From assembly GCF_014192115.1 (NCBI RefSeq), contig NZ_JACHXL010000002.1, positions 372,001 to 436,000 of the forward strand: 64,000 nt of DNA, read 5' to 3'. Both the position numbers and the translations under genes were made by a program. The notes beneath the pieces are model-generated. The model saw only the letters and a list, made by a program, of their open reading frames with translations, did no database searches and was not told the origin of the DNA. The stretch is from Psychrobacter luti (lineage in GTDB: Bacteria > Pseudomonadota > Gammaproteobacteria > Pseudomonadales > Moraxellaceae). Positions 1 to 12,007 of the stretch are shown in pieces; the stretch's first letter is position 1, and every line of letters starts with the position of its first letter.

Positions 1-59
1 TGAGCAGGTGGCTTGAAAGAGTAAAGTCAGCAGTACTTTTTAGCATGTATTAGATTGTG

Positions 60-107
60 TTTTCAAGGCTGTTTTCAAAGCCACTTTCAAAGCCACTTTC
101 AAAGTTA
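60..107. repeat. 12-nt tandem repeat upstream of gspE
   Basis: Four consecutive 12-nt units of the form YTTTCAAAGCCA, the first and last degenerate, end about 45 nt before the gspE start. The two central units differ at one base. No function is evident; it could be a slipped-strand expansion in the leader. Confidence 0.6.
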
Positions 108-152
108 TTTTATAAGTTCTTTTTTAAATTTGTCACTCACTAGGTCGTCTTT

Positions 153-1709
153 ATGCTGCAGCTGCCGTACAGTTTTGCAAAACGTCATCAAATTTTGGCC
201 ATTCTTGCTATTGATCCCAAGTTGCCGCCGACACTGGTGTTGACCAAAGCCACGCCATTGTCCGCAATTAATGAAGCGGTGCGGTTTTTACAACAGCAAG
301 GCGTGCGCGGTGTACCAAATTACGAAAGTATCAGCGCCGATGACTTCGAAAAACGTATGAATGCTGCTTATGCTGGTAATACGGGTGAGTCGCAGCATAT
401 CGCCGCTGGACTTGAAGACCATCCTGACCTTGATAGCTTGGCAGATAGCGTTCCTGAAACGGAAGACTTGATGGACCAACAAGACGATGCGCCGATTATT
501 CGTTTAATTAATGCGTTGTTGTCGGAAGCGATACGTTTAAACGCTTCAGATATTCATATTGAAACCTTTGAGAAGCGCTTAGTCGTACGCTTCCGTGTCG
601 ATGGAGAGCTAAAAGAAATTATTACCCCAAAACGCCAATTAGCGCCGTTACTTGTTTCACGTATCAAAGTAATGGCCAAATTGGATATCGCCGAAAAGCG
701 CGTACCACAAGACGGGCGTATTAGCTTACGATTGGCAGGGCGTGAGGTCGATGTGCGGGTATCAACGCTGCCATCAAGCTTTGGCGAGCGGGTAGTAATG
801 CGCCTGCTCGATAAACAAGCGGGTCGTCTGAATATGACTTATCTTGGACTTTCTGATAATGACTACAGCGAGCTTAAGCGCTTAATCCATCGGCCACATG
901 GCATTATATTGGTCACCGGACCGACGGGTTCAGGGAAAACTACCACTTTATATTCGGCGCTAACTGATTTGAATGACCAAACTCGCAATATCTTAACTGC
1001 GGAAGATCCTATTGAATTTCAGCTCGATGGTATTGGGCAGACGCAAGTCAATAACAAGGTCGATATGACTTTTGCTAAGAGTTTACGCGCCATGCTACGG
1101 CAAGATCCAGACGTGGTGATGGTTGGTGAAATTCGTGATCTAGAGACCGCTGAGATTGCCGTACAAGCGTCGTTAACAGGACATTTGGTGTTATCGACGC
1201 TGCATACCAATACCGCCATTGGGGCGGTCACGCGTTTGCAAGATATGGGCGTAGAGCCATTTTTATTATCGTCATCGCTGATTGGTGTCGTCGCTCAGCG
1301 CTTGGTACGGACGTTATGTACACATTGTCATGGTTGGCAGGCTGCTGATAACGAACAGGCCAAATTATTTACTGAAATTGGTATATCCTCAAATGCTACA
1401 AGTACGGGTACTGAAAAATCAACAGCAAAGGCAATTAACCTGCCGAAACCAGTGGGCTGTGATAAATGTAATAATTCGGGATTTAAAGGTCGGACGGCAA
1501 TCTATGAAGTGGTGCCGATTGACGATACCTTGCGCCGTATGATTCATAGCAATACTGCTGAATACGAGCTAGAAGAATACGCCCGTCAGCAGACACCATC
1601 GATACGTACTGATGGACTGCGCAAAGTCATAGAGGGACGGACGACGTTAGAAGAAGTGCTGAGGGTAACCAAAGAAAGCGCCCTAACTGATGATGCTATG
1701 ATTGTATAA
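153..1709 (+). CDS. gspE: Type II secretion system ATPase GspE
   Basis: Hexameric cytoplasmic ATPase that powers pseudopilus assembly in the type II secretion system. The 518-aa length is normal for the family. Residues 1-130 form the N-terminal N1E/GspL-binding part, followed by the N2 domain and the RecA-like core. The Walker A motif GPTGSGKT is at residues 256-263, followed by an Asp box (EDPIEF), a Walker B region (VGEIRD) and a His box (LHTN). A C-terminal tetracysteine zinc module, CTHC (389-392) and CDKC (436-439), is typical of GspE/PilB and absent from PilT. The ATG at 153 follows a weak AGG-containing site. The other gsp genes of the window, gspF and gspG, lie about 9 kb away, so the system is dispersed as in Acinetobacter. 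A PilB assignment is less likely because the protein is short at the N-terminus. Confidence 0.93.
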   Translation: MLQLPYSFAKRHQILAILAIDPKLPPTLVLTKATPLSAINEAVRFLQQQGVRGVPNYESISADDFEKRMNAAYAGNTGESQHIAAGLEDHPDLDSLADSVPETEDLMDQQDDAPIIRLINALLSEAIRLNASDIHIETFEKRLVVRFRVDGELKEIITPKRQLAPLLVSRIKVMAKLDIAEKRVPQDGRISLRLAGREVDVRVSTLPSSFGERVVMRLLDKQAGRLNMTYLGLSDNDYSELKRLIHRPHGIILVTGPTGSGKTTTLYSALTDLNDQTRNILTAEDPIEFQLDGIGQTQVNNKVDMTFAKSLRAMLRQDPDVVMVGEIRDLETAEIAVQASLTGHLVLSTLHTNTAIGAVTRLQDMGVEPFLLSSSLIGVVAQRLVRTLCTHCHGWQAADNEQAKLFTEIGISSNATSTGTEKSTAKAINLPKPVGCDKCNNSGFKGRTAIYEVVPIDDTLRRMIHSNTAEYELEEYARQQTPSIRTDGLRKVIEGRTTLEEVLRVTKESALTDDAMIV

Positions 1710-1734
1710 AGAAAAACGATTGTATAAAGCAAAA

Positions 1735-1776
1735 CGGTTATTGAGCCAAAAGTCAGGACAATTGGCTCAATAACCG
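1735..1776 (-). terminator. Terminator between gspE and ridA-like gene
   Basis: A perfect 15-bp inverted repeat (1735-1749 and 1762-1776, 12-nt loop) lies between convergent genes. Reading the minus strand it is followed by a T-rich stretch, so it fits best as terminator of the ridA-like gene. It may also stop gspE transcripts. Confidence 0.8.
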
Positions 1777-1818
1777 CGTAATAGAAAAAATCAGTTTGGT
1801 TTATTTGTAATAGCGCTG

Positions 1819-2313
1819 CTATTTCGCGGCGATACATTCAACTTCAACGCTTGCGCCTGCTGCCAATTCTGAGACGCCAAAGGCTGAGCGTACAGGGTAA
1901 GGCTTAGTCAATTCTGCTTTATAGACTTTATTAAAGTCATCAAAGTCATCCATATCGGTCAGCATCGCCATACATTTGACGATATCTGACTTTTGGTAAC
2001 CGTACTTTAATAAGGTTTCATTGATATTATCGAGTGCTTGTTTTGCTTCCGCTTTTACGCCGCCTTTGACCAATTTACCGTCTTTAAAGCCAATCTGTCC
2101 TGACATATAGAGCGTATCGCCGACACGTACCGCTTCTGAAAATGGATAATTGCCACCATCACCGAGAAAGACTGGGCTAGATTTGGTGATGGTTGCATTA
2201 TTAGTCGTTGGCGCTGCATTGGCAGTAACGGCAAAACCCAAGCCTAATGAACAGGCGCTAATCAGCACCGCTTTAGATAGGTTAGTAGTCAATTTATTGA
2301 TATATATAGACAT
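1819..2313 (-). CDS. RidA/YjgF-family protein with signal peptide
   Basis: A 164-aa member of the Rid (YjgF/YER057c/UK114) family. Cytosolic RidA hydrolyses reactive enamine/imine intermediates made by PLP enzymes. Family features are visible: GDTLYMSGQIG near residue 68, the helix with QALDNI, and the C-terminal PVRSAFGV...VEVECIA block containing the conserved Arg that binds the substrate carboxylate. Unlike housekeeping RidA (about 128 aa), it carries an N-terminal extension of about 33 residues. This has a basic start, a hydrophobic core (AVLISACSLGLGFAV) and an ANA-A cleavage site, which predicts export to the periplasm. An AGGAGA ribosome site precedes the ATG. It is a single gene convergent with gspE. 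The physiological substrate is unknown. Confidence 0.88.
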   Translation of the reverse strand: MSIYINKLTTNLSKAVLISACSLGLGFAVTANAAPTTNNATITKSSPVFLGDGGNYPFSEAVRVGDTLYMSGQIGFKDGKLVKGGVKAEAKQALDNINETLLKYGYQKSDIVKCMAMLTDMDDFDDFNKVYKAELTKPYPVRSAFGVSELAAGASVEVECIAAK

Positions 2314-2387
2314 GCTTGTCTCCTTATTATAGTAGTGTTTCTTAAATCCATTTTTTGGTAGCTAATTAATTCTTTAACAAATTAAAA

Positions 2388-3158
2388 TTAATTGCTCTCG
2401 AGTTCTTGCGTAGATGTTAGGCTATTTTCTTCACTTTCAGATTGCTCGGCTTTAGGTTGTTTGTGTTCAGATGGCTCATCTTCAGTTTTTTCATTATCAA
2501 TTTGATTATTCTCTAACTCTTTAGAAGCTTTACCTTGACGGCGCGCTTCTAATTCAGATTTGGGTATCCAAGCCCACGTCATCTCAACCACGATTGGGTC
2601 ACGGTCGCTATCCGACTCACGGTCATGAATCACACAAGGTATCACCATCTCACCCTTTGGAGTATTTAAAATATCCAAGCGCTGCTCATCCGACAATGAC
2701 GCCACGGCGGCAATTTGACCTTTTTTAATCGGACGATAAAAATTTACTGAATAAGATTTAATCAATAATACGCGGTCAGACGGTAGGTTTAAACCCAAAA
2801 TAAACCCTGTTGCCGTTTCAGCAAGTAAAGTGATGGCAACGGCATGGACGGATCCAATATGGTTTTGTACCGCTTTGGTATTATTTAAGCTGACCACCAC
2901 TTGATTGGGATTCACGGTTTCATAATAGATACCCGTTGTGCCCACGTACGGCACCACTTTACCAAAGGCCTTCGATAAAATACTAGCGCGCGCACCCGCA
3001 GGTAAATACTTGGTGACAGATAGCAGCTTGGTAAATTGGTTGCTGATGGGTTTTAAGGTGCTATTTGGTTTTTCGACTGGCAATCTTGTGTTGTCAGCTA
3101 CTTTGACTGCTCTTTTATTGGTCAGCTTGGTAGGGAGTTTTTTTAATAATCCTGACAT
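2388..3158 (-). CDS. DUF4442 domain protein (hotdog, thioesterase-like)
   Basis: About 256 aa. The central part (roughly residues 40-200) resembles DUF4442 hotdog-fold proteins related to acyl-CoA thioesterases: a basic N-terminus, the PYVGTTGIYYETVNP and NHIGSVHAVAITLLAE segments (the helix that normally carries the acidic or Asn catalytic residue), and a YRPIKKG strand. The last 60 residues are a charged Glu/Ser/Gln-rich tail that is probably disordered. The start at 3158 is preferred over the upstream ATG at 3191 because GAGGAA sits 7 nt before it. Substrate and pathway are not known. It is transcribed towards the ridA-like gene with a 75-nt gap, so co-transcription is possible. Confidence 0.75.
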   Translation of the reverse strand: MSGLLKKLPTKLTNKRAVKVADNTRLPVEKPNSTLKPISNQFTKLLSVTKYLPAGARASILSKAFGKVVPYVGTTGIYYETVNPNQVVVSLNNTKAVQNHIGSVHAVAITLLAETATGFILGLNLPSDRVLLIKSYSVNFYRPIKKGQIAAVASLSDEQRLDILNTPKGEMVIPCVIHDRESDSDRDPIVVEMTWAWIPKSELEARRQGKASKELENNQIDNEKTEDEPSEHKQPKAEQSESEENSLTSTQELESN

Positions 3159-3540
3159 ACAACATTCCTCAATTTGGAGTGGTTTAATCATATTAATTAA
3201 CGAAGCTGGTTCATTAGGCTAGCCAACTGGGTTAATTCATGGATGGTTAGAAAATGAGCGCTGAATGAATGAGATAATAAGCTTTATCCTAGCAGCTATT
3301 TTAACGCTGGCGCATTTCTAACTTAGTCAATTTCTAACTATGGTACATTAAGCGCCGTATCGCTACTATTATTAACATGAACTGCTGCGCTTATAAAATA
3401 TGACTAACGTAACGATATCTTAAATATTCGCAATAAATATTATCAGTAACGTTGCTAAAAGTGGTTTTAATAAAAACAACATCACTGAGCGTTAGGTCAT
3501 TTAATGCAAAAGAGCCACGTTATAATAGCTAGACTTTCAT
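3159..3540. other. Intergenic region, divergent DUF4442/mcrB
   Basis: This 382-nt stretch has no credible coding potential. A TATAAT at 3521-3526 could be the -10 element for the mcrBC pair, but no good -35 is seen at the right distance. If used, it would place the transcript start only a few nucleotides before the ATG at 3541, favouring either leaderless translation or the internal ATG at 3604. Confidence 0.4.
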
Positions 3541-5064
3541 ATGACTGAAGTGCTGAAGTATCATTGCCGTAATTTTTTAATACTGGATAAGGCTGTGCCG
3601 GATATGTCTCCTCAAAAACCGACCAATATCATTTATACAGGCGTCGCTGGTACGGGTAAAACCTATCGCTTGCTACAAATCTCGCAGCAATATACCGACT
3701 ATTTGCCAAGGATAAATGACAAGGATTTATTGGGACAGTTGCTGCATGAATTAAGCTGGCGTGATGTCGTTTGCTTAATATTTTTAGATTTTAAATCTAA
3801 AAAACAGGACTTGGTTAAAGTGCCGGAAGTTGTCAGTCATGAGTTTTTTATTAGTAAAGCGGCGCAAAATTCGCGTGATAAAAACTTAAGCAATACTGCT
3901 TGGTCTGTGCTGCAAATGCATACGCCTGCTAGATCACAAACGGTGAGTTATAAAAATCGAGCCAGCCAAGCCTATTTTGATAAAGATAATAGCGGCGCAT
4001 GGTATCTGCTCCCCGAAAGCATGGATTTGTTAAGTGACTTAGCGCAGCAATTAGCCGAGTTTCAGCAGGCGCAGCGTGAGAATAATAGCCAGAATCAAGA
4101 GTTTCGCCAACAGCGCTTTAGTATGATTAGCTTCCATCAGGCTTATGGTTATGAAGAGTTTGTCGAAGGTATCCGCCCTGTGATGACGGTGCCCAATCAT
4201 GTAGCGAATAGCTCGACTCAAATGAGTTATGCCATTCAAGATGGCGCATTTTTAAAGTTGTGCCAACGCGCTGCTAATGACCCTGATCAGCGTTATGCGA
4301 TGCTAATTGATGAGATCAATCGGGCTAACGTTTCACGCGTCTTTGGTGAGCTGTTAAGTTTGGTTGAAACAGACAAACGTGCTGGCATGACAAACGCAAT
4401 GACGGTTAATTTGGCTTATTCAGGGCGTACCTTTAGCGTTCCTGCCAACGTTGATATTTATGCCACGATGAACACCCAAGACCACTCATTAGCGCCGCTT
4501 GATATGGCATTACGTCGGCGTTTCCGCTTTATTGACTGTCCGCCGCAGCCTGAATTGTTACCTATTATTCATATCAATCAAGACTTAGAAGCTGATAATT
4601 CAGAAGCGCTTCATTCAAAAACAGCTAATCCGACAGAAGTGATAGATTTAGCGAAAATTTTAACCGGCTTAAATAATCGCATCGCGCAAACGCTAGGGGC
4701 AGAGGCGCAACTAGGTCATGCATTTTTATGGTCGGTAGATAGTCTCGAGCAATTGCAAACGGCACTTATTGAACAAATCATTCCGCAATTGGCGCAAGCC
4801 GCGGGCGGGCAAGTCACTATTTTGCAATATATCTTCCAAGATGAGCAGCAGCCGATAAGTGCGCAGTTTATACAAGATAGCCAAGCGCTCATCAATAATG
4901 ATGCAAATAATTCGGTTAATCCAAATAGTCCGAATCAGCTGTTTGCAGGACAGCAGTCCTTTCTCGGTCAGTCTATGAGTACGGGCAGTTATAAAATTAA
5001 TACTGATTTACTAGGTAACAGCGCTGAGTTTACAAAGCCGTTTGTCTATCAGCGTTTATATTAA
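3541..5064 (+). CDS. McrB-like AAA+ GTPase/ATPase of a type IV restriction module
   Basis: A 507-aa AAA+ motor of the McrB family. With its McrC partner it would translocate DNA and trigger cleavage. Walker A is GVAGTGKT (residues 34-41), Walker B is LIDEIN (about 255-260) and the McrB signature loop is NTQD (311-314), followed by LAPLDMALRRRFRF with the arginine-finger region. E. coli McrB has about 160 residues of methyl-DNA-binding domain before the motor. Here the P-loop starts almost at the N-terminus, so that domain is missing. Residues 60-200 between Walker A and the QAYGYEEFVEGIRP block form a family-specific insertion, and the last 110 residues are Gln/Asn-rich. The alternative start Met22 (3604) would shorten it further. 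It is followed 15 nt later by mcrC. Confidence 0.88.
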   Translation: MTEVLKYHCRNFLILDKAVPDMSPQKPTNIIYTGVAGTGKTYRLLQISQQYTDYLPRINDKDLLGQLLHELSWRDVVCLIFLDFKSKKQDLVKVPEVVSHEFFISKAAQNSRDKNLSNTAWSVLQMHTPARSQTVSYKNRASQAYFDKDNSGAWYLLPESMDLLSDLAQQLAEFQQAQRENNSQNQEFRQQRFSMISFHQAYGYEEFVEGIRPVMTVPNHVANSSTQMSYAIQDGAFLKLCQRAANDPDQRYAMLIDEINRANVSRVFGELLSLVETDKRAGMTNAMTVNLAYSGRTFSVPANVDIYATMNTQDHSLAPLDMALRRRFRFIDCPPQPELLPIIHINQDLEADNSEALHSKTANPTEVIDLAKILTGLNNRIAQTLGAEAQLGHAFLWSVDSLEQLQTALIEQIIPQLAQAAGGQVTILQYIFQDEQQPISAQFIQDSQALINNDANNSVNPNSPNQLFAGQQSFLGQSMSTGSYKINTDLLGNSAEFTKPFVYQRLY

Positions 5065-5079
5065 CAAGGTTGCTAGCTA

Positions 5080-6672
5080 GTGATGAGTAGAATATTACAG
5101 TCTGAGGGTAAAGCGATAGGTAGCAGTATTAGTAGTGCTAATATTACTAATATTACTAATAACGTCAATGCGGCTGCACTTGATGCTAATATTATTACGG
5201 TGTTTGAACACCAGCGTTTGACGGCGCGTGATTTTGCACACGCAACGGATTTTCATTGGTTAATGGCGCAAGAGTATGCTGTTTTTAGTATTAAACGCCA
5301 GCAGGGACAATGGCAGCTAAAGGTTGGCCATTATATTGGCGTTATCTTATTACCAAGTGGTATGGCGCTTGAGATATTACCCAAGCTGATGGCAAAAATG
5401 TCTAGCAAGCACAATCCGCAGCAACCATACGAGTCATCCAAATCTAGCGCTATTAATCAGACGCGGCAATGGGTACAGGATATGTTGGTTGACTTAACCA
5501 ATAGTAGCCAATCTAAAAGCAAGCTCCCTAATACAAAAAACTTAGGTCAACTTAGTACTCAGTTGGCGGCGCTGCCTACTAAAGTACCACCATTATCAGA
5601 CTGGTTAATTGCGCAGTTTGTACAGCGTTTAGCTCACTATCAACCGACTAAGCACTATCAGGCGCAAGTTCATAACCAAGCAGCGCTACAAGGTCGCTTG
5701 CTGATTAAAGAACAGCTTCGCCATAACAGTATGCAACCGCATAAGTTTGTCTGTGAGAGCAGTGTGCTGAGCCAAGATATGCTGAGTAATCGCTTAATTA
5801 AAAGTGCGCTGGTTTTACTTGTACCGCTATCTCCCACATCAATGTCACTGCCGTCATTACAGCAGTGGCAACAAGTAGCAGTGCTAAGTCGTTATGAGCT
5901 GCAGCGGCTCAAGCCGCTATATCAGCAAGCAAAACACCAGTTAGCGCTACAGCCTTTATCTCAGCAGCAATCACAAGCGGCGCAGCAGTTATTAGATTTG
6001 GCTTATTGGCTATTGCAACAATCTCCCACCCATACTGGAAATGGAATTAATTCGCATGCACTAGCCAACCAAAACGTCTCTCAACCACTTTTATGTTTAT
6101 TGATTGATATGAATCAAGCGTTTGAGCAATGGGCAAGCCTGCGTATCGCGACAATGTTTCAGCAAGCCAATTCGGCGTATAAGCCTTTGTTTCAAACGCA
6201 AAGTGTCTGGCTAAACGATGCAGAAGGGCAGGCGTGTCTGTCTATTCGTCCCGATTTATTGATATATAAAGCAGCTGCTGCTGCTGACAATGATACTCAG
6301 CTAATTCCAAGTCAAACTCAAAATCAAGGTAATATAGAGATTAGTGAGAGGTCAGGTCACTATAGCCACGTGATTGATATGAAATGGAAGCACCTAGCGC
6401 ACGCCTGTGCTATTAGCGCCAATGACGCCTATCAGTTGACCAGTTATGCGCAGGCTTATCGTGCAGAGCAAGTATGGTTGGTTTATCCGGTGCAGGATAA
6501 TAGCAGGCAACCCGTTGAGCTTAGACAGCAAGCTTGTAATAAAGGTGATAGTACAGACTGTCGTAAAACAGCTAACAAGCCATTAAATGCCGCTAGATTA
6601 TGGCTGATACCTTTTAATGTTATTACTGGAGATATAAATGGCGGCTTGCTTCCGGACTTAAATGTAGTATAA
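5080..6672 (+). CDS. McrC-like endonuclease subunit
   Basis: A 530-aa partner of the upstream McrB-like motor, considerably longer than E. coli McrC (about 350 aa). The N-terminal third shows the McrC pattern: a VFEHQRL strand, then YIGVILLPSGMALEILPKL, which normally docks onto the McrB hexamer. The C-terminal PD-(D/E)XK nuclease core is visible as RPDLL (Asp392) and DMKWK (Asp433, Lys435), followed by NDAYQLTSYAQAY, a typical Gln/Tyr helix of this nuclease class. Low-complexity Gln/Ser insertions lie between the domains. The ATG at 5083 may be used instead of 5080. It forms an operon with the motor gene, and the tRNA cluster begins about 250 nt downstream. The target modification cannot be told from sequence. 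Confidence 0.87.
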   Translation: MMSRILQSEGKAIGSSISSANITNITNNVNAAALDANIITVFEHQRLTARDFAHATDFHWLMAQEYAVFSIKRQQGQWQLKVGHYIGVILLPSGMALEILPKLMAKMSSKHNPQQPYESSKSSAINQTRQWVQDMLVDLTNSSQSKSKLPNTKNLGQLSTQLAALPTKVPPLSDWLIAQFVQRLAHYQPTKHYQAQVHNQAALQGRLLIKEQLRHNSMQPHKFVCESSVLSQDMLSNRLIKSALVLLVPLSPTSMSLPSLQQWQQVAVLSRYELQRLKPLYQQAKHQLALQPLSQQQSQAAQQLLDLAYWLLQQSPTHTGNGINSHALANQNVSQPLLCLLIDMNQAFEQWASLRIATMFQQANSAYKPLFQTQSVWLNDAEGQACLSIRPDLLIYKAAAAADNDTQLIPSQTQNQGNIEISERSGHYSHVIDMKWKHLAHACAISANDAYQLTSYAQAYRAEQVWLVYPVQDNSRQPVELRQQACNKGDSTDCRKTANKPLNAARLWLIPFNVITGDINGGLLPDLNVV

Positions 6673-6801
6673 TGAGCGCTGTCGAAAACGACAGTGTCTA
6701 TTATGGTTGATAAAATCAACGTTGCGTCAGCGCTATTTGCATTAAGATTTAACGTTTTTAAAAGAGTTTAACGATTCTTTGAAAATAATAAAAAATAAGT
6801 G

Positions 6802-6830
6802 TTGACACAAACGGCTTTACCCCTTAATAT
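6802..6830 (+). promoter_or_regulatory. Sigma-70 promoter of the tRNA cluster
   Basis: A perfect -35 TTGACA (6802-6807), a 17-nt spacer and -10 TAATAT (6825-6830) are preceded by an A-rich tract (an UP-element-like stretch at 6780-6798) and followed by a G/C-containing discriminator. It lies about 90 nt before tRNA-Pro, as expected for a strong stable-RNA promoter. Confidence 0.8.
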
Positions 6831-6918
6831 GTGCACCTCGATAGCGAGGAACATTAACAAGTTAGCAGTATTACTGATAACGAGTTAGATAACAAACTAT
6901 CGTGATAATAGAGAATTT

Positions 6919-6995
<77 letters not shown>

Positions 6996-7006
6996 TCTAT
7001 TTAAAG

Positions 7007-7026
7007 AGCCTTACAGGCTTTTTTTT
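7007..7026 (+). terminator. Weak hairpin with T-run between tRNA-Pro and tRNA-Arg
   Basis: A short AGCC/GGCT stem is followed by eight or more Ts. The stem is only 4-5 bp, so it may be a partial terminator or a processing site inside the tRNA transcript. Confidence 0.4.
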
Positions 7027-7088
7027 ATGTATAATGGTTTAGTTTCTGCTATGCTAAGCTTGCCAAGATATATAAAAGTCCTCTAAGA

Positions 7089-7165
7089 GCGCCTGTAGCT
7101 CAGTTGGATAGAGCATCTCCCTTCTAAGGAGGTGGCCGCAGGTTCGAATCCTGCCAGGCGCACCA
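7089..7165 (+). tRNA. tRNA-Arg (anticodon UCU)
   Basis: A complete 77-nt cloverleaf. Acceptor stem GCGCCTG pairs with CAGGCGC, the anticodon loop CTTCTAA gives UCU for AGA/AGG codons, the T-arm is GGTTCGAATCC, and CCA is encoded. Confidence 0.97.
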
Positions 7166-7203
7166 TTTAGCCTGTCAATCTTGCCTTTTTTGGCAACAGT
7201 TAT

Positions 7204-7280
7204 GGCGGTTGTAGCTCAGTTGGTAGAGCCCCGGGTTGTGATCTCGGTTGTCGTGGGTTCGAGTCCCATCAGTCGCCCCA
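7204..7280 (+). tRNA. tRNA-His (anticodon GUG)
   Basis: A complete cloverleaf. The anticodon loop contains GTG, the T-arm is GGTTCGAGTCC and CCA is encoded. The genomically encoded G-1 (7204) pairs with C73, the identity feature of bacterial tRNA-His. The acceptor stem contains several G-T wobbles but is intact. Confidence 0.96.
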
Positions 7281-7746
7281 TATTTTATTCTGCATTACCT
7301 TCCTCATTAAATCCAAAAGTATTAAAATAACTCATTTGCCATCATTGGCATTTTTTCGTGCCTGTCTGTTTAATATTAATATGTGCTCTCTAAGTTATTA
7401 TGCTATGTAAACTATACGGCTGCTTTAATTCTTATGAGTTATAAACTTCCTGGGCATTTAATTATCTCAGCGTCTGCTAGCCTTTTTTCGCTTTTTTTCT
7501 TATGATAGATGTGCTCGCCAATTTTCTATTATTTGTTAAACCTTATTAAATTCAGTGGTCACATTAAATTATTTATTCAATATTTTTATTTATTTCTTTG
7601 CTTCGAATTTATAAGAAACTAAAAGCCTATCAAATAAAAATTATAATTGTTACCGAATTACTCTAAAAGATTTTGCAGTGATAAGCGCTTTATTTCTATT
7701 ATTTAAGATTTATTATATTGAGTACCAATTATTGAGGAAGTGATGG
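7281..7746. other. Intergenic region between tRNA-His and araC-type gene
   Basis: 466 nt of AT-rich DNA. It contains the tRNA terminator (7337-7356) and, at its end, the GAGGAAG ribosome site of the AraC-type gene. No ORF or other RNA gene was recognised. Confidence 0.5.
7337..7356 (+). terminator. Terminator of the tRNA cluster
   Basis: A TGCCA/TGGCA stem with a 4-nt loop is immediately followed by six Ts, about 55 nt after tRNA-His. Confidence 0.7.
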
Positions 7747-8688
7747 ATGGACGCACTGAGCGTGTTACTACAAAATGTGCATTTATTCGAAACGAAATAT
7801 TATCGTTTAAATGGTGTTGGTAATTGGTCTTATTCAATCACAAGACAAGATACGATTTTATTTTATTTGGTGATGTCGGGTGGTTTTGCTATCGATGTCG
7901 GCAATGGTCCGCGAGAAGTGCGTGCCGGTGACATGATTATGGTTCCAAGTGCGCATAAGCATGTCAGTTACGCGCTAAATCATCATGGTGATAATGCTGC
8001 ACCGTTAGATGAGTCATTGGCAAATTGTCAAAAGCATACACTGGATCTTCAAGGTGAGTTTGACGGTGAGCCCAATTCGTCGTTGATTCTGATTGAATGT
8101 AAGTACGATAAGGCGATGATTCGGCCTTTATTGTCCGTGCTACCAGCGATATTGCCTGAAATTGGCGAAGAAGCTGATGGTCGGTTTGAAGTTATTGATG
8201 TTGAGATTAGGCTGCTGACGTTAGAGACTGAACACGAGCGTATGGGCAAAGCTGCGGTCATCAATCATTGGGCAAGTATTATGATGATTGAGTGTCTGCG
8301 CATATATATTGAAAGTCTGCCTGAAGCGACTGACAATTGGCTCATGGCCATGAAAGATCCCTTTTTGACCAAAGCGCTGGTAGCAATGCATGAATCGCCA
8401 AGTAAAAACTGGACGATTCATAAGCTTGCTGAGGTGGCAGGAATGTCACGCTCAAGCTTTGCACAGCGTTTCAAGGAAGTGGTCGGCATACCACCATTAA
8501 CCTACTTGATGGATTATCGTTTGCGCTTAGCCGCCCGATATTTGCGTTTGCAGCAAAATAGTATTAGCCGTATCAGTGAATTGGTCGGTTACGCTTCAGA
8601 CTCGACCTTTAGCCAAGCCTTTAAGCGTGTTTATGGTGTCTCGCCAAAAGCCTATCGTCAGCAGTATCAACAACAAATGCTCGCTTAG
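7747..8688 (+). CDS. AraC-family transcriptional regulator with cupin sensor domain
   Basis: A 313-aa regulator. Residues 1-190 form a cupin-like sensor domain of the AraC_binding_6 type (FYLVMSGGFAIDV, then the GDMIMVPSAHKH turn). Residues of about 205-313 are the double helix-turn-helix AraC/XylS domain: KLAEVAGMSRSSFAQRFK is the first HTH and ISELVGYASDSTFSQAFKRVYGVSPKAYR the second, with the family signature. This class often controls stress or catabolic genes and responds to small hydrophobic or redox signals. The ATG at 7747 has GAGGAAG 8-14 nt upstream. It is a single gene with its own terminator. The neighbours (tRNAs, an unknown gene, gspF) do not reveal the target or inducer. Confidence 0.9.
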   Translation: MDALSVLLQNVHLFETKYYRLNGVGNWSYSITRQDTILFYLVMSGGFAIDVGNGPREVRAGDMIMVPSAHKHVSYALNHHGDNAAPLDESLANCQKHTLDLQGEFDGEPNSSLILIECKYDKAMIRPLLSVLPAILPEIGEEADGRFEVIDVEIRLLTLETEHERMGKAAVINHWASIMMIECLRIYIESLPEATDNWLMAMKDPFLTKALVAMHESPSKNWTIHKLAEVAGMSRSSFAQRFKEVVGIPPLTYLMDYRLRLAARYLRLQQNSISRISELVGYASDSTFSQAFKRVYGVSPKAYRQQYQQQMLA

Positions 8689-8715
8689 TCAGATTTTAAC
8701 TCCTATACATCTTTT

Positions 8716-8756
8716 AAAAGCGCTCAGGCTATTTATTTTCCTGAGCGCTTTTTTTA
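8716..8756 (+). terminator. Terminator of the AraC-type gene
   Basis: A 13-bp stem (AAAAGCGCTCAGG with its complement) and an 11-nt loop are followed by a T-run, 28 nt after the stop codon. Confidence 0.9.
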
Positions 8757-9017
8757 TTCAATATTCATTATTGATAGAATTTTTCGCTGCTTGAAACATC
8801 CTTTATCACTGATTTTGATGCTCAGTATTTCGGCGATGGACAGCTGACAATGTACTGAGGTTCAGGTACTATAGAATAATTAATTGCCCAAGACTAAATG
8901 TGCTGATACGTTGATTTTTTAGCAGGTTATATCTCAATCTCATGGTATGACAGCCATGTTATGCTGATAGCTAATATGACTTGGGTAATGTTGTTTTTTT
9001 GCAGCTGATGGTATTTT
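8757..9017. other. Intergenic region upstream of unknown gene
   Basis: About 260 nt remain after the terminator. The region is AT-rich with no ORF and no clear promoter. There is no strong ribosome site before the ATG at 9018. Confidence 0.4.
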
Positions 9018-10169
9018 ATGACTGAACCGACCGCTAAACCAAACGTAACCTTAAATGACACTCAAGGCGCTGCCATGCCTACTACAAATACAGACGACGT
9101 TAATCAAAAAAAGGTTAAAGGTAAGGTAAAAAACAATCAGCGAACGGTAAAAAATAAGCAAAAAGGTCAGGTGACGGCTACGCTTGATAAAGCGGCATTG
9201 TTGGCATTATTTACTTTGCCAAATGCTGAGCATAACTTTGATGAATTATCAGTCGAAAATCTAGCATCTGAAAAATCGGCATCTAAACAATTACCGCTTG
9301 AACAAGCTGGGGTGAATAGTGGCAACCAAATACCTGCTAGCCAAATATCTGCCCATCAAACTCTAAATACTACTAACAGCGATACCAATGTCGCCGTTCA
9401 ACGTGTGGCACTCTATCGCGCTCAGCATGAGCGCACGCGCCAGCTCTATATGGCGTCTGCCGCGACCCGTCCTACTTATCTTGTACAAACGCTAAAAACA
9501 CAGTTTGCAGAATATCAGCAATATTTACTGGCGCAGCAGCTGGATAAACGTGGTCTTATGGATACCGATGGGCTAGAGCGGCTATGGCAGCAGCTGCATG
9601 TGGTCGATGATATTATCGAAGATATTGTCCGTCATATGCCCGCGCAGCAGCCCGCCGGTTGGCAGTTAACAACGCAGGATGGACATAATCCCCTGCGCTT
9701 TGCTACCGTTGGTAAGCTTAAGCATGACAAGCCTATTTTGGATCAAGGCAGTTTGAACAGCTACGTCCTCGGGCACTTTGGCGTTAGTAGCTTTACTTAT
9801 GATCGTGGTTATTATATCGGTCATGTGGTTGGTTACTTATTTAGCTGCTATTTTTGCGCCCATCTGTCTATCAATTATGGTGTTACCGCGTTGGGTCAGC
9901 AGGTCGTGAGCGACTATGAATACGCCAGTCTAGAGACGCCGCATATGGTGCGGCTGCTACAAGGTTTGGATGGTTATTGCAAAAAACGTATTTATCAATT
10001 GGCGGTTATTTGTGCAAGGTTAAGCGTCTTTGCCAGTGACAAGCGTATCGAGCGAATGCTGATAGCTGAGGTCAATGATTTTGATAAAAAGCTGCAACAA
10101 CAGCATTTAGATGTTTTACTATTACAAGGCTTGATGCCGGATAGCAGTGATTCTACGCCGCTTTTCTAA
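9018..10169 (+). CDS. Unrecognised helical protein upstream of gspF
   Basis: 383 aa, not assigned to a family. Residues 1-55 are Lys/Thr/Asn-rich and probably disordered, followed by a Gln/Ser/Asn-rich linker to about residue 130. From there to the end the protein is mostly helical with Arg/Gln/Tyr-rich amphipathic segments, such as AQHERTRQLY and the helix around FAEYQQYLLAQQL. A Trp/Asp segment reads LWQQLHVVDDIIEDIV. Residues 240-290 hold an aromatic stretch, YDRGYYIGHVVGYLFSCYFCAHL, that could be a buried helix rather than a membrane span. No signal peptide is seen. It lies 77 nt before gspF on the same strand, so co-transcription with gspF is possible, but a secretion role is only inference from position. 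Confidence 0.7.
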   Translation: MTEPTAKPNVTLNDTQGAAMPTTNTDDVNQKKVKGKVKNNQRTVKNKQKGQVTATLDKAALLALFTLPNAEHNFDELSVENLASEKSASKQLPLEQAGVNSGNQIPASQISAHQTLNTTNSDTNVAVQRVALYRAQHERTRQLYMASAATRPTYLVQTLKTQFAEYQQYLLAQQLDKRGLMDTDGLERLWQQLHVVDDIIEDIVRHMPAQQPAGWQLTTQDGHNPLRFATVGKLKHDKPILDQGSLNSYVLGHFGVSSFTYDRGYYIGHVVGYLFSCYFCAHLSINYGVTALGQQVVSDYEYASLETPHMVRLLQGLDGYCKKRIYQLAVICARLSVFASDKRIERMLIAEVNDFDKKLQQQHLDVLLLQGLMPDSSDSTPLF

Positions 10170-10246
10170 ATAATTAATTCTCCAAGATTTATTTTAAAAA
10201 TTCGATTTATCCCCCTTTTACTGACCACCTTAGGATATTCGCTGCT

Positions 10247-11449
10247 ATGCCCGCTTATCATTATAAAGCGTTAGACGATCATGGCAGTGTCCAAAAAGGC
10301 TTACTTGAAGGGGATTCTGCGCGCCAAGTTCGCCAGCAGCTGCGTGATAAACAATGGACGCCCGTTGAAGTCACGGCTGTCAATGATAGACAAAGTCAAA
10401 GCAAGAACCGGTATAAAAAACCTTCTGCTTATGAATTGGCATTGCTGACGCGTCAGTTATCAGTCTTACTTGCCGCCGGTATTCCTTTAGAGGAAACGCT
10501 TGCTGCGGTCGCCAAACAATCGCCAAAAACCCACATAAAATCTCTTATGCTTGCGGTGCGCTCGCATGTGTTAGAAGGTTTAAGCCTCGCGCGTGCTCTG
10601 CAACAAGCCGCCAGTTTTCCGCCGTTGTATATTGCTACCATTGCGGCAGGTGAGAAGTCTGGCCACTTAGATCTAATTCTCAATCAATTAGCAGATTACA
10701 CCGAAAACCGTTTTGCCCTACAGAAGAAAATCCAAGGGGCAATGGTCTATCCGATTGTGCTGATGGTGATGGCAGTCGGGGTGATTATGGGCTTGATGAG
10801 CTTTGTAGTACCCAAGATTGTTAAAGTGTTTGAGCAATCGGAACAAGCGCTACCGCTGATTACCCAAATTGTCCTGAGCTTATCCAATATTATTACCCAG
10901 TGGTGGTGGCTAATGCTACTGGTATTGGCAGGGGCAGCGTTTTTATTTTATCGTTTTGCCCAAACCCAAGCGGGCAAATTAGCGATAGACAGTATTGTGC
11001 TCAGGCTACCGATATTGGCGCGCTTATCAAAAGGACTTAACGCCGCACGTTTTGCCAGTACGCTTGCGATATTGGTGCGCTCGGGTGTGCCGCTAATTGA
11101 AGCGTTACATATTGGCGCGGCGGTGACGACCAATTTACACATTCAAAAAACCATTATTACGGCAGCCGATAGGGTGACGGAGGGTTCAAGTTTATCGAGT
11201 CAATTAGACAAGTCCACTTACTTTCCGCCGATGATGGTACAAATGATTAAAAGTGGTGAAAACTCAGGCGAGCTTGAAAACATGCTCAGCCGCGCGGCTA
11301 ACATGCAAGAAGCGGAAGCCACCAACTTTATCAGTACTTTGCTATCGTTGCTTGAGCCGTTAATGCTAGTGCTCATGGGTGTGGTGGTGATGATTATTGT
11401 GATGGCGGTGATGCTACCGATTGTGAATATGAATGACTTAGCAGGTTAG
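10247..11449 (+). CDS. gspF: Type II secretion inner membrane protein GspF
   Basis: The 400-aa polytopic platform protein of the type II secretion system, which sits in the inner membrane below the pseudopilus and contacts GspE. It begins MPAYHYKALDDHG, the characteristic GspF start, followed by two homologous T2SSF domains. The first (about residues 65-190) contains LTRQLSVLLAAGIPLEE; the second (about 265-390) contains FASTLAILVRSGVPLIEAL. Three membrane spans are visible near 170-190, 220-240 and 370-395. Both halves carry the GEKSG/GENSG motif. The length is as in the family. It precedes gspG by about 0.5 kb. Confidence 0.95.
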   Translation: MPAYHYKALDDHGSVQKGLLEGDSARQVRQQLRDKQWTPVEVTAVNDRQSQSKNRYKKPSAYELALLTRQLSVLLAAGIPLEETLAAVAKQSPKTHIKSLMLAVRSHVLEGLSLARALQQAASFPPLYIATIAAGEKSGHLDLILNQLADYTENRFALQKKIQGAMVYPIVLMVMAVGVIMGLMSFVVPKIVKVFEQSEQALPLITQIVLSLSNIITQWWWLMLLVLAGAAFLFYRFAQTQAGKLAIDSIVLRLPILARLSKGLNAARFASTLAILVRSGVPLIEALHIGAAVTTNLHIQKTIITAADRVTEGSSLSSQLDKSTYFPPMMVQMIKSGENSGELENMLSRAANMQEAEATNFISTLLSLLEPLMLVLMGVVVMIIVMAVMLPIVNMNDLAG

Positions 11450-12007
11450 TAAACACCATTTTTTATATTTTTAAGTCACTTCAATGCACTTATTCTACTT
11501 TTATCCGACTTAAACTCTCCTTTTATTTACCTTACTAAATCCTGTGCTAGCTTTCTTAAGCTTTGCTTACTGTTGTACATCGTTGAGGACATGGGGTATA
11601 TACTTCAGTCGGCTTAGGGATTGGGTTATAGTAGGTAGCATCAATCTGCTTTGACTTTCACTTTGTATTCTAAAGGTTTTACATTATTTATTATCCGCTT
11701 ATGTGAAGTTTGCTGCTTTTGTCAGGTTTATATTGGCAAAATCAGTAACCGTGAGGATAATCTAATCGCAGCGCTGGATAAAAATAAAATCATGGTCTAT
11801 AGTGATAATCGATTCAATATTCATTAAGACCACGCTAATATTACCTGAGCGCTCCTGACCACTTATATAACTGTGACGATAAAAGCGATGATTATGACTA
11901 AAAAAAACCAAGTAAATATAATGCCGCAGACTGTTATTGATAATGTTCGAACACCTGTAGCTATCATGAATGACGATAGCAAAACCACAGTGCGTAGCCA
12001 TCAGCCA
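11450..12007. other. Intergenic region between gspF and gspG
   Basis: This gap is unusually long for neighbouring gsp genes. It is AT-rich in the first half. An in-frame extension of gspG reaches back to about 11873, but its residues do not look like a prepilin leader. No terminator or convincing promoter was found. Confidence 0.4.

Follow-up and report, generated by a model that had tools for sequence, protein, structure and literature searches.

The window analysed here, a stretch of 64,000 nucleotides from Psychrobacter luti, carries close to its start two adjacent genes that encode an McrB-like motor and an McrC-like endonuclease subunit, with the following features.

3541..5064, + strand: McrB-like AAA+ motor, 507 aa, without an N-terminal reader (Pfam and PDB matches)
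3640..3663, + strand: Walker A motif (P-loop) GVAGTGKT, McrB residues 34-41; columns 34, 37, 39, 40 and 41 invariant in 103/103 genus sequences
3712..4020, + strand: inserted domain, approximately McrB residues 58-160, predicted winged helix (AlphaFold2 model and structural alignment)
4309..4323, + strand: Walker B motif DEINR, McrB residues 257-261; D257, E258, N260 and R261 invariant in 103/103
4468..4482, + strand: NxxD-type McrB signature MNTQD, McrB residues 310-314; N311 and D314 invariant in 103/103
5080..6672, + strand: McrC-like endonuclease subunit, 530 aa, GTG start (PF10117, E 5.5e-35)
6253..6255, + strand: McrC Asp392 of the PD-(D/E)XK site; Asp in 104/104
6376..6384, + strand: McrC Asp433-x-Lys435 of the PD-(D/E)XK site; position 433 Asp in 103 and Glu in one (G087), Lys435 in 104/104

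The motor matches AAA_5 in Pfam and the solved McrB motors among PDB sequences (best E 5.6e-38), and it has the Walker A, Walker B and NxxD motifs that define the McrB family of AAA+ proteins; N303 and R325-R327 are also invariant in the 103 genus McrBs. Neither protein reaches the cut-off of its NCBIfam equivalog (McrB 120.3 bits against 637, McrC 33.3 bits against 338), and a PADLOC scan gave generic REase_II matches only for McrB and no match for McrC. McrC has no match among PDB sequences at E 1, and no EVE domain was matched in the Psychrobacter McrB.

In K-12 McrB about 200 residues lie ahead of the P-loop and hold the DNA-binding domain. Only 33 residues precede it in the P. luti protein, and between 11 and 75 (median 24) do so across the 103 genus McrBs, such that the N-terminal modified-DNA-binding domain (the reader) of McrBC type IV systems is absent from Psychrobacter McrB. 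No such domain has been overlooked, since the open frame is 511 aa long and adds at most four codons to the protein, and the gap between the McrB start and the divergent upstream gene is 349 bp. Coordinates and frame therefore agree with the first-pass annotation, which placed the P-loop at residue 34 and saw no space for an N-terminal reader. Its description of the locus as a variant McrBC system is likewise supported, by the absence of the reader together with intact motor and nuclease sites, and because the reader is lacking we classify the pair as a readerless variant, distinct from standard McrBC.

The inserted domain and the McrC partner

The distance from the P-loop to the FHQ motif, which is 31 residues in K-12 McrB of E. 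coli, is 164 residues in the P. luti protein, therefore the insertion in the motor is real. An AlphaFold2 model built from an alignment of 35 sequences rendered the AAA+ core poorly (mean pLDDT 50.8), whilst residues 61-170 came out as a confidently modelled domain (block means 69-88). Structural matches to the model were mostly winged-helix chains, over residues 51-189 or parts of them, with moderate values (best winged-helix Z 8.8, 5.9 A over 110 residues; BigR Z 7.6, 2.3 A over 77), and the insertion is predicted from these to fold as a winged helix. Across ten proteins that range from Psychrobacter to Enterococcus, seven alignment columns in the domain do not vary; R140 and K148 are among its conserved residues. 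Searches of the inserted domain against PDB sequences and Pfam found nothing above chance level; with ten inserted domains and a limit of E 10, no HARE-HTH (PF05066) match came up in Pfam, and a genome scan for PF05066 found none in the window's own genome and one in 199 family genomes (G295).

On the strength of the model, the insertion is the best candidate for a DNA-contacting part of the module. It had been put forward at first pass as a possible source of target recognition, and whilst the predicted winged helix is in keeping with this, it is not a private replacement for the missing reader, because relatives with long N-terminal regions also have it. Five such relatives were found, three plasmid-borne (E. 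coli 691 aa, Acaryochloris 670 aa, Enterococcus 1146 aa) and two in Moraxellaceae genomes (836 and 843 aa). The sole recognised N-terminal domain among the five is an MrcB_N in the Enterococcus protein (E 6e-47); when the N-terminal regions of the E. coli, Acaryochloris and 843-aa proteins were scanned on their own, no Pfam family passed its cut-off, and we infer that these regions are readers. The E. coli protein, from pBone7_3 (CP054241.1) and one of the plasmid relatives with better coverage, is similar to the Psychrobacter McrB in its insertion, its McrC partner and its sequence (39.6% identity over residues 27-444) but differs in having about 245 residues ahead of the P-loop. Four further relatives, with alignments that begin ahead of the P-loop, have open frames of 757-885 aa. 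On another E. coli plasmid (CP088711.1, locus L143) an McrB relative is annotated as short separate pieces, and is probably a decaying copy.

The McrC partner has the PD-(D/E)XK site expected of an McrBC nuclease, and the core residues proposed at first pass (Asp392, Asp433 and Lys435) are confirmed by the genus alignment; the McrBC-type nuclease is complete and apparently active. The only McrC with Glu for Asp433 is that of G087 (locus L191), whose McrB, at 576 aa, exceeds in length all others of the genus set. The codon after the GTG start of the P. luti gene is ATG. At 530 aa this McrC was described as unusually long, which holds against K-12 McrC (348 aa) but less so against nearer relatives, since the McrCs of genus g4 (a Moraxellaceae genus discussed below) and of relatives outside the compact clade are 427-457 aa long, and the N-terminal segment that K-12 McrC lacks is present in them. 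Within Psychrobacter conservation is highest at residues 38-103, 129-140, 172-248, 306-395 and 428-472 (mean identity 0.61-0.75), residues 141-171 and 249-305 (near 0.47) and 506-530 (0.52) are intermediate, and the N-terminal tail, 104-128, 396-427 and 473-505 are least conserved (0.16-0.25). Because the surplus falls mainly in the poorly conserved segments, the extra length would seem to be mostly variable linker. The proposal that recognition comes from extra segments of McrC is disfavoured by the same values, as most of these segments are the least conserved parts of the protein, although residues 141-171 may hold a small conserved recognition element. The McrC structure model (mean pLDDT 37.6) was too poor for a structural search.

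Distribution, setting and descent

The genus sample consisted of 105 genomes, one per species, 97 of them of high quality. McrB was matched in 104 of the 105 at E 1e-20 and McrC in 104 at E 1e-10, with both genes matched in all 97 high-quality genomes; the one exception among the 105, G081, is a genome of 77% completeness. The first-pass annotation had proposed that the locus be compared among Psychrobacter genomes, and held that universal conservation as a housekeeping gene pair would count against its reading; the universality half of this is what was found. An McrB ORF of at least 400 aa is present in 103 of the 104 genomes with a match, the exception being G075 where McrB is broken and the genome is 85% complete, and an McrC ORF of at least 400 aa is present in 104/104.

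The position of the pair is also fixed. A divergent DUF4442 gene lies upstream of McrB in 104/104 genus loci, and a tRNA-Pro lies no more than 1.5 kb downstream of the pair in 102 of them; as for the two remaining loci, G012 has the three tRNAs just past 1.5 kb and the G073 locus is on a 6.2-kb contig. In P. luti the tRNA-Pro, -Arg and -His genes are at 6919-7280 of the window. The locus is flanked on both sides, within positions 1-12000 of the window, by gspE, gspF and another type II secretion-like gene. A conserved 383-aa gene at 9018-10169, with no Pfam family above cut-off, sits between gspF and an AraC-type regulator in the majority of the retrieved genus loci long enough to cover this region.

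The third-position GC content is host-like (McrB 0.415, McrC 0.395, neighbours 0.396-0.491). Between close loci McrB has a median dN/dS of 0.137 and McrC one of 0.193 (six loci). Six neighbours, compared over five or six loci, lie at 0.023-0.124, the slowest-evolving of them being gspE and gspF (0.035 and 0.023), and these ratios indicate that both genes of the pair are under purifying selection and evolve faster than the six neighbours. Pairwise distances across 46 loci correlate with those of the linked gspE and gspF, with r of 0.896 and 0.908 for the pair, 0.835 for the DUF4442 gene and 0.807 for the gene at 9018; this fits vertical descent, in a test where the reference genes are all linked to the pair.

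Restriction genes are usually patchy between species, and the second McrB-like matches and the two methyltransferase families, taken as controls in the same genomes, are in line with this. A second McrB-like match elsewhere in the genome was found in 23 of the 105 genus genomes; HSDR_N was matched in 80 of the 97 high-quality genomes, the C5-methyltransferase family PF00145 in 41 and MethyltransfD12 (PF02086) in 21, these three controls being families and not single orthologues, with some matches, including some of those to PF00145, short fragments. None of the three families was matched in the window's own genome. HSDR_N is itself common, with up to five matches in a genome, and the pair contrasts with the controls both in frequency and in occupying one fixed site where their copies are scattered.

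Beyond the genus, a search of the family matched McrB in 146 of 322 genomes at 1e-20. Matches better than 1e-70 outside Psychrobacter came from two Moraxellaceae genera, labelled g8 and g4, and from one genome each of g12 and g2; among the matches listed, the rest were to part of the motor. At the level of the order 14 of 391 genomes matched at 1e-40, of which 12 belong to Psychrobacter and the remaining two match in long open frames, and at the level of the class nine genomes matched, six to the motor core alone, one of them (G896) in a 498-aa frame. No relative was found in viral contigs scanned with both the McrB and McrC alignments at the sensitivity used, and phage records gave partial matches only, 0/19 covering 80% of a g4 McrB.

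The compact form of McrB was seen in three Moraxellaceae genera only, namely Psychrobacter, g8 (5/6 genomes; G292 has none) and g4 (4/4 genomes, one cut short). A quick tree places Psychrobacter and g8 in one well-supported group (support 100) that excludes g4 and the other relatives, and the simplest reading of the sequences is that the N-terminal region was lost within the Moraxellaceae, once or twice. Against a missed N-terminal domain at g4 loci, the McrB start lies 14 and 39 bp past the preceding gene in two cases and the ORFs overlap in a third. The g4 copy that is cut short (L124, G281) has a stop that reduces McrB to a 324-aa ORF beside a full-length McrC ORF. One g8 copy (L119, G289) reads GVAGSSKT at the P-loop position, where other compact McrBs have GVAGTGKT or nearly so, and may be altered.

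The settings of the pair differ between the three genera. In 4/4 g4 loci it follows genes that we take, from their sequence, to be lepB, rnc, era, recO, pdxJ and miaE, and in 4/5 g8 loci it shares a setting different from those of g4 and Psychrobacter. Among ORFs of at least 90 aa at 13 loci, McrB and McrC are the only families common to the neighbourhoods of all three genera. A third gene in cis was sought in the same set and no other family recurs, hence the suggestion that an additional partner supplies recognition finds no support in cis.

What the pair may do

We favour, with moderate confidence, the reading that this is an McrBC-type nuclease that has lost its reader and become a vertically inherited core pair of Psychrobacter, common also in two other Moraxellaceae genera. 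McrB would assemble into a GTP-loaded AAA+ ring, on which McrC would dock, stimulate GTP hydrolysis and cut through its PD-(D/E)XK domain. DNA would be engaged by McrC and by the predicted winged helix that follows the Walker A helix, with no dedicated reader of modified bases. The pair would be a surveillance nuclease on constant watch, choosing its DNA by some feature other than broad 5mC, its role most likely still one of innate defence, with genome maintenance as the alternative. Counting against this reading are the missing or damaged copies (G292, G281 and G075), the unusual P-loop of L119 and the faster evolution of both genes relative to their neighbours, together with the poor AAA+ core of the model and the moderate winged-helix values. 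Broad 5mC restriction is unlikely because C5-methyltransferase matches coexist with an intact pair, all 45 PF00145-positive genomes having long McrB and McrC ORFs. Narrow methylation contexts could be tolerated; Dcm coexists with McrBC in K-12.

K-12 EcoKMcrBC is similar in its adjacent genes, in an AAA+ motor with Walker A, Walker B and NxxD motifs and in an McrC with a PD-(D/E)XK site, but its motor has no insertion. CoCoNuT systems also have an McrB-like GTPase of variant architecture, but they are described as carrying an NxD motif and long coiled-coil regions (PMC11090510), whereas N311-x-x-D314 is found in 103/103 Psychrobacter McrBs. In the titles and abstract openings of the literature searched no description was found of this locus, or of an intact McrBC that lacks a reader and is fixed throughout a genus; inserted domains in McrB GTPases as such are already known.

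A possible but more doubtful explanation is domestication. The McrBC would have lost its reader within the Moraxellaceae and been domesticated as a core genome-maintenance nuclease, in separate settings in the three genera, with a set task on the chromosome, for instance DNA repair or the removal of aberrant DNA, in place of phage defence, and the winged helix and McrC would recognise DNA structure or ends. The presence of the pair in every high-quality genome at a conserved position, the absence of a dedicated reader, and the fixed places of the g4 pair after housekeeping genes and of most g8 pairs in a setting of their own, all point this way. There is moreover a precedent in PcdA, described as an McrB-family protein that is retained by one bacterial lineage, Staphylococcus, and co-opted for cell division (PMC10602043). 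By that description PcdA has two EVE domains, degraded Walker motifs and no linked McrC, whereas the Psychrobacter McrB has intact Walker motifs and an McrC beside it, and is therefore not PcdA-like. Weighing against domestication are the dN/dS values of the pair, which exceed those of all six neighbours, and the retention of the nuclease site. Furthermore, since copies are missing or damaged in G292, G281 and G075, the pair is not strictly essential.

It would seem improbable that the pair is an ordinary modification-dependent restriction system in which the inserted winged helix reads a modified base or McrC reads 5mC. Winged helices read 6mA in DpnI and its relatives, and the winged-helix prediction for the insertion lends this some weight. 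In other type IV enzymes winged helices are described as sensing 6mA, and combinations of an N-terminal domain, a winged helix and an McrB-like NTPase with an McrC-like nuclease have been noted, uncharacterised (PMC11037411). The likeness is one of description, as those proteins have an N-terminal domain and the Psychrobacter McrB has none, its predicted winged helix lying within the AAA+ motor. In addition, a census of McrBC systems reports insertions in the GTPase domains as frequent and considers them likely specificity domains (PMC11090510). Against this, the insertion is shared with the five relatives that have long N-terminal regions, one of them with MrcB_N, and methyltransferases of both families coexist with the pair, although narrow sequence contexts would escape this last argument. 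As for a recently acquired accessory defence island beside a tRNA cluster, as first annotated, the pair does adjoin three tRNA genes, but its presence in 97/97 high-quality genomes (104/105 overall), fixed synteny in place of the patchy presence and variable sites of a mobile island, host-like base composition and lack of relatives in the viral contigs at the sensitivity used contradict this and make it very improbable.

To return to the favoured reading of a readerless core nuclease, the locus raises the question of how an McrBC machine picks its DNA without a reader of modified bases, and whether a restriction machine can turn into a core function of the cell. Because the pair is intact and in the same place in nearly every species examined, there are hints of a constant job in the cell, and why it has been retained throughout the genus is the interesting question for the biology of Psychrobacter.
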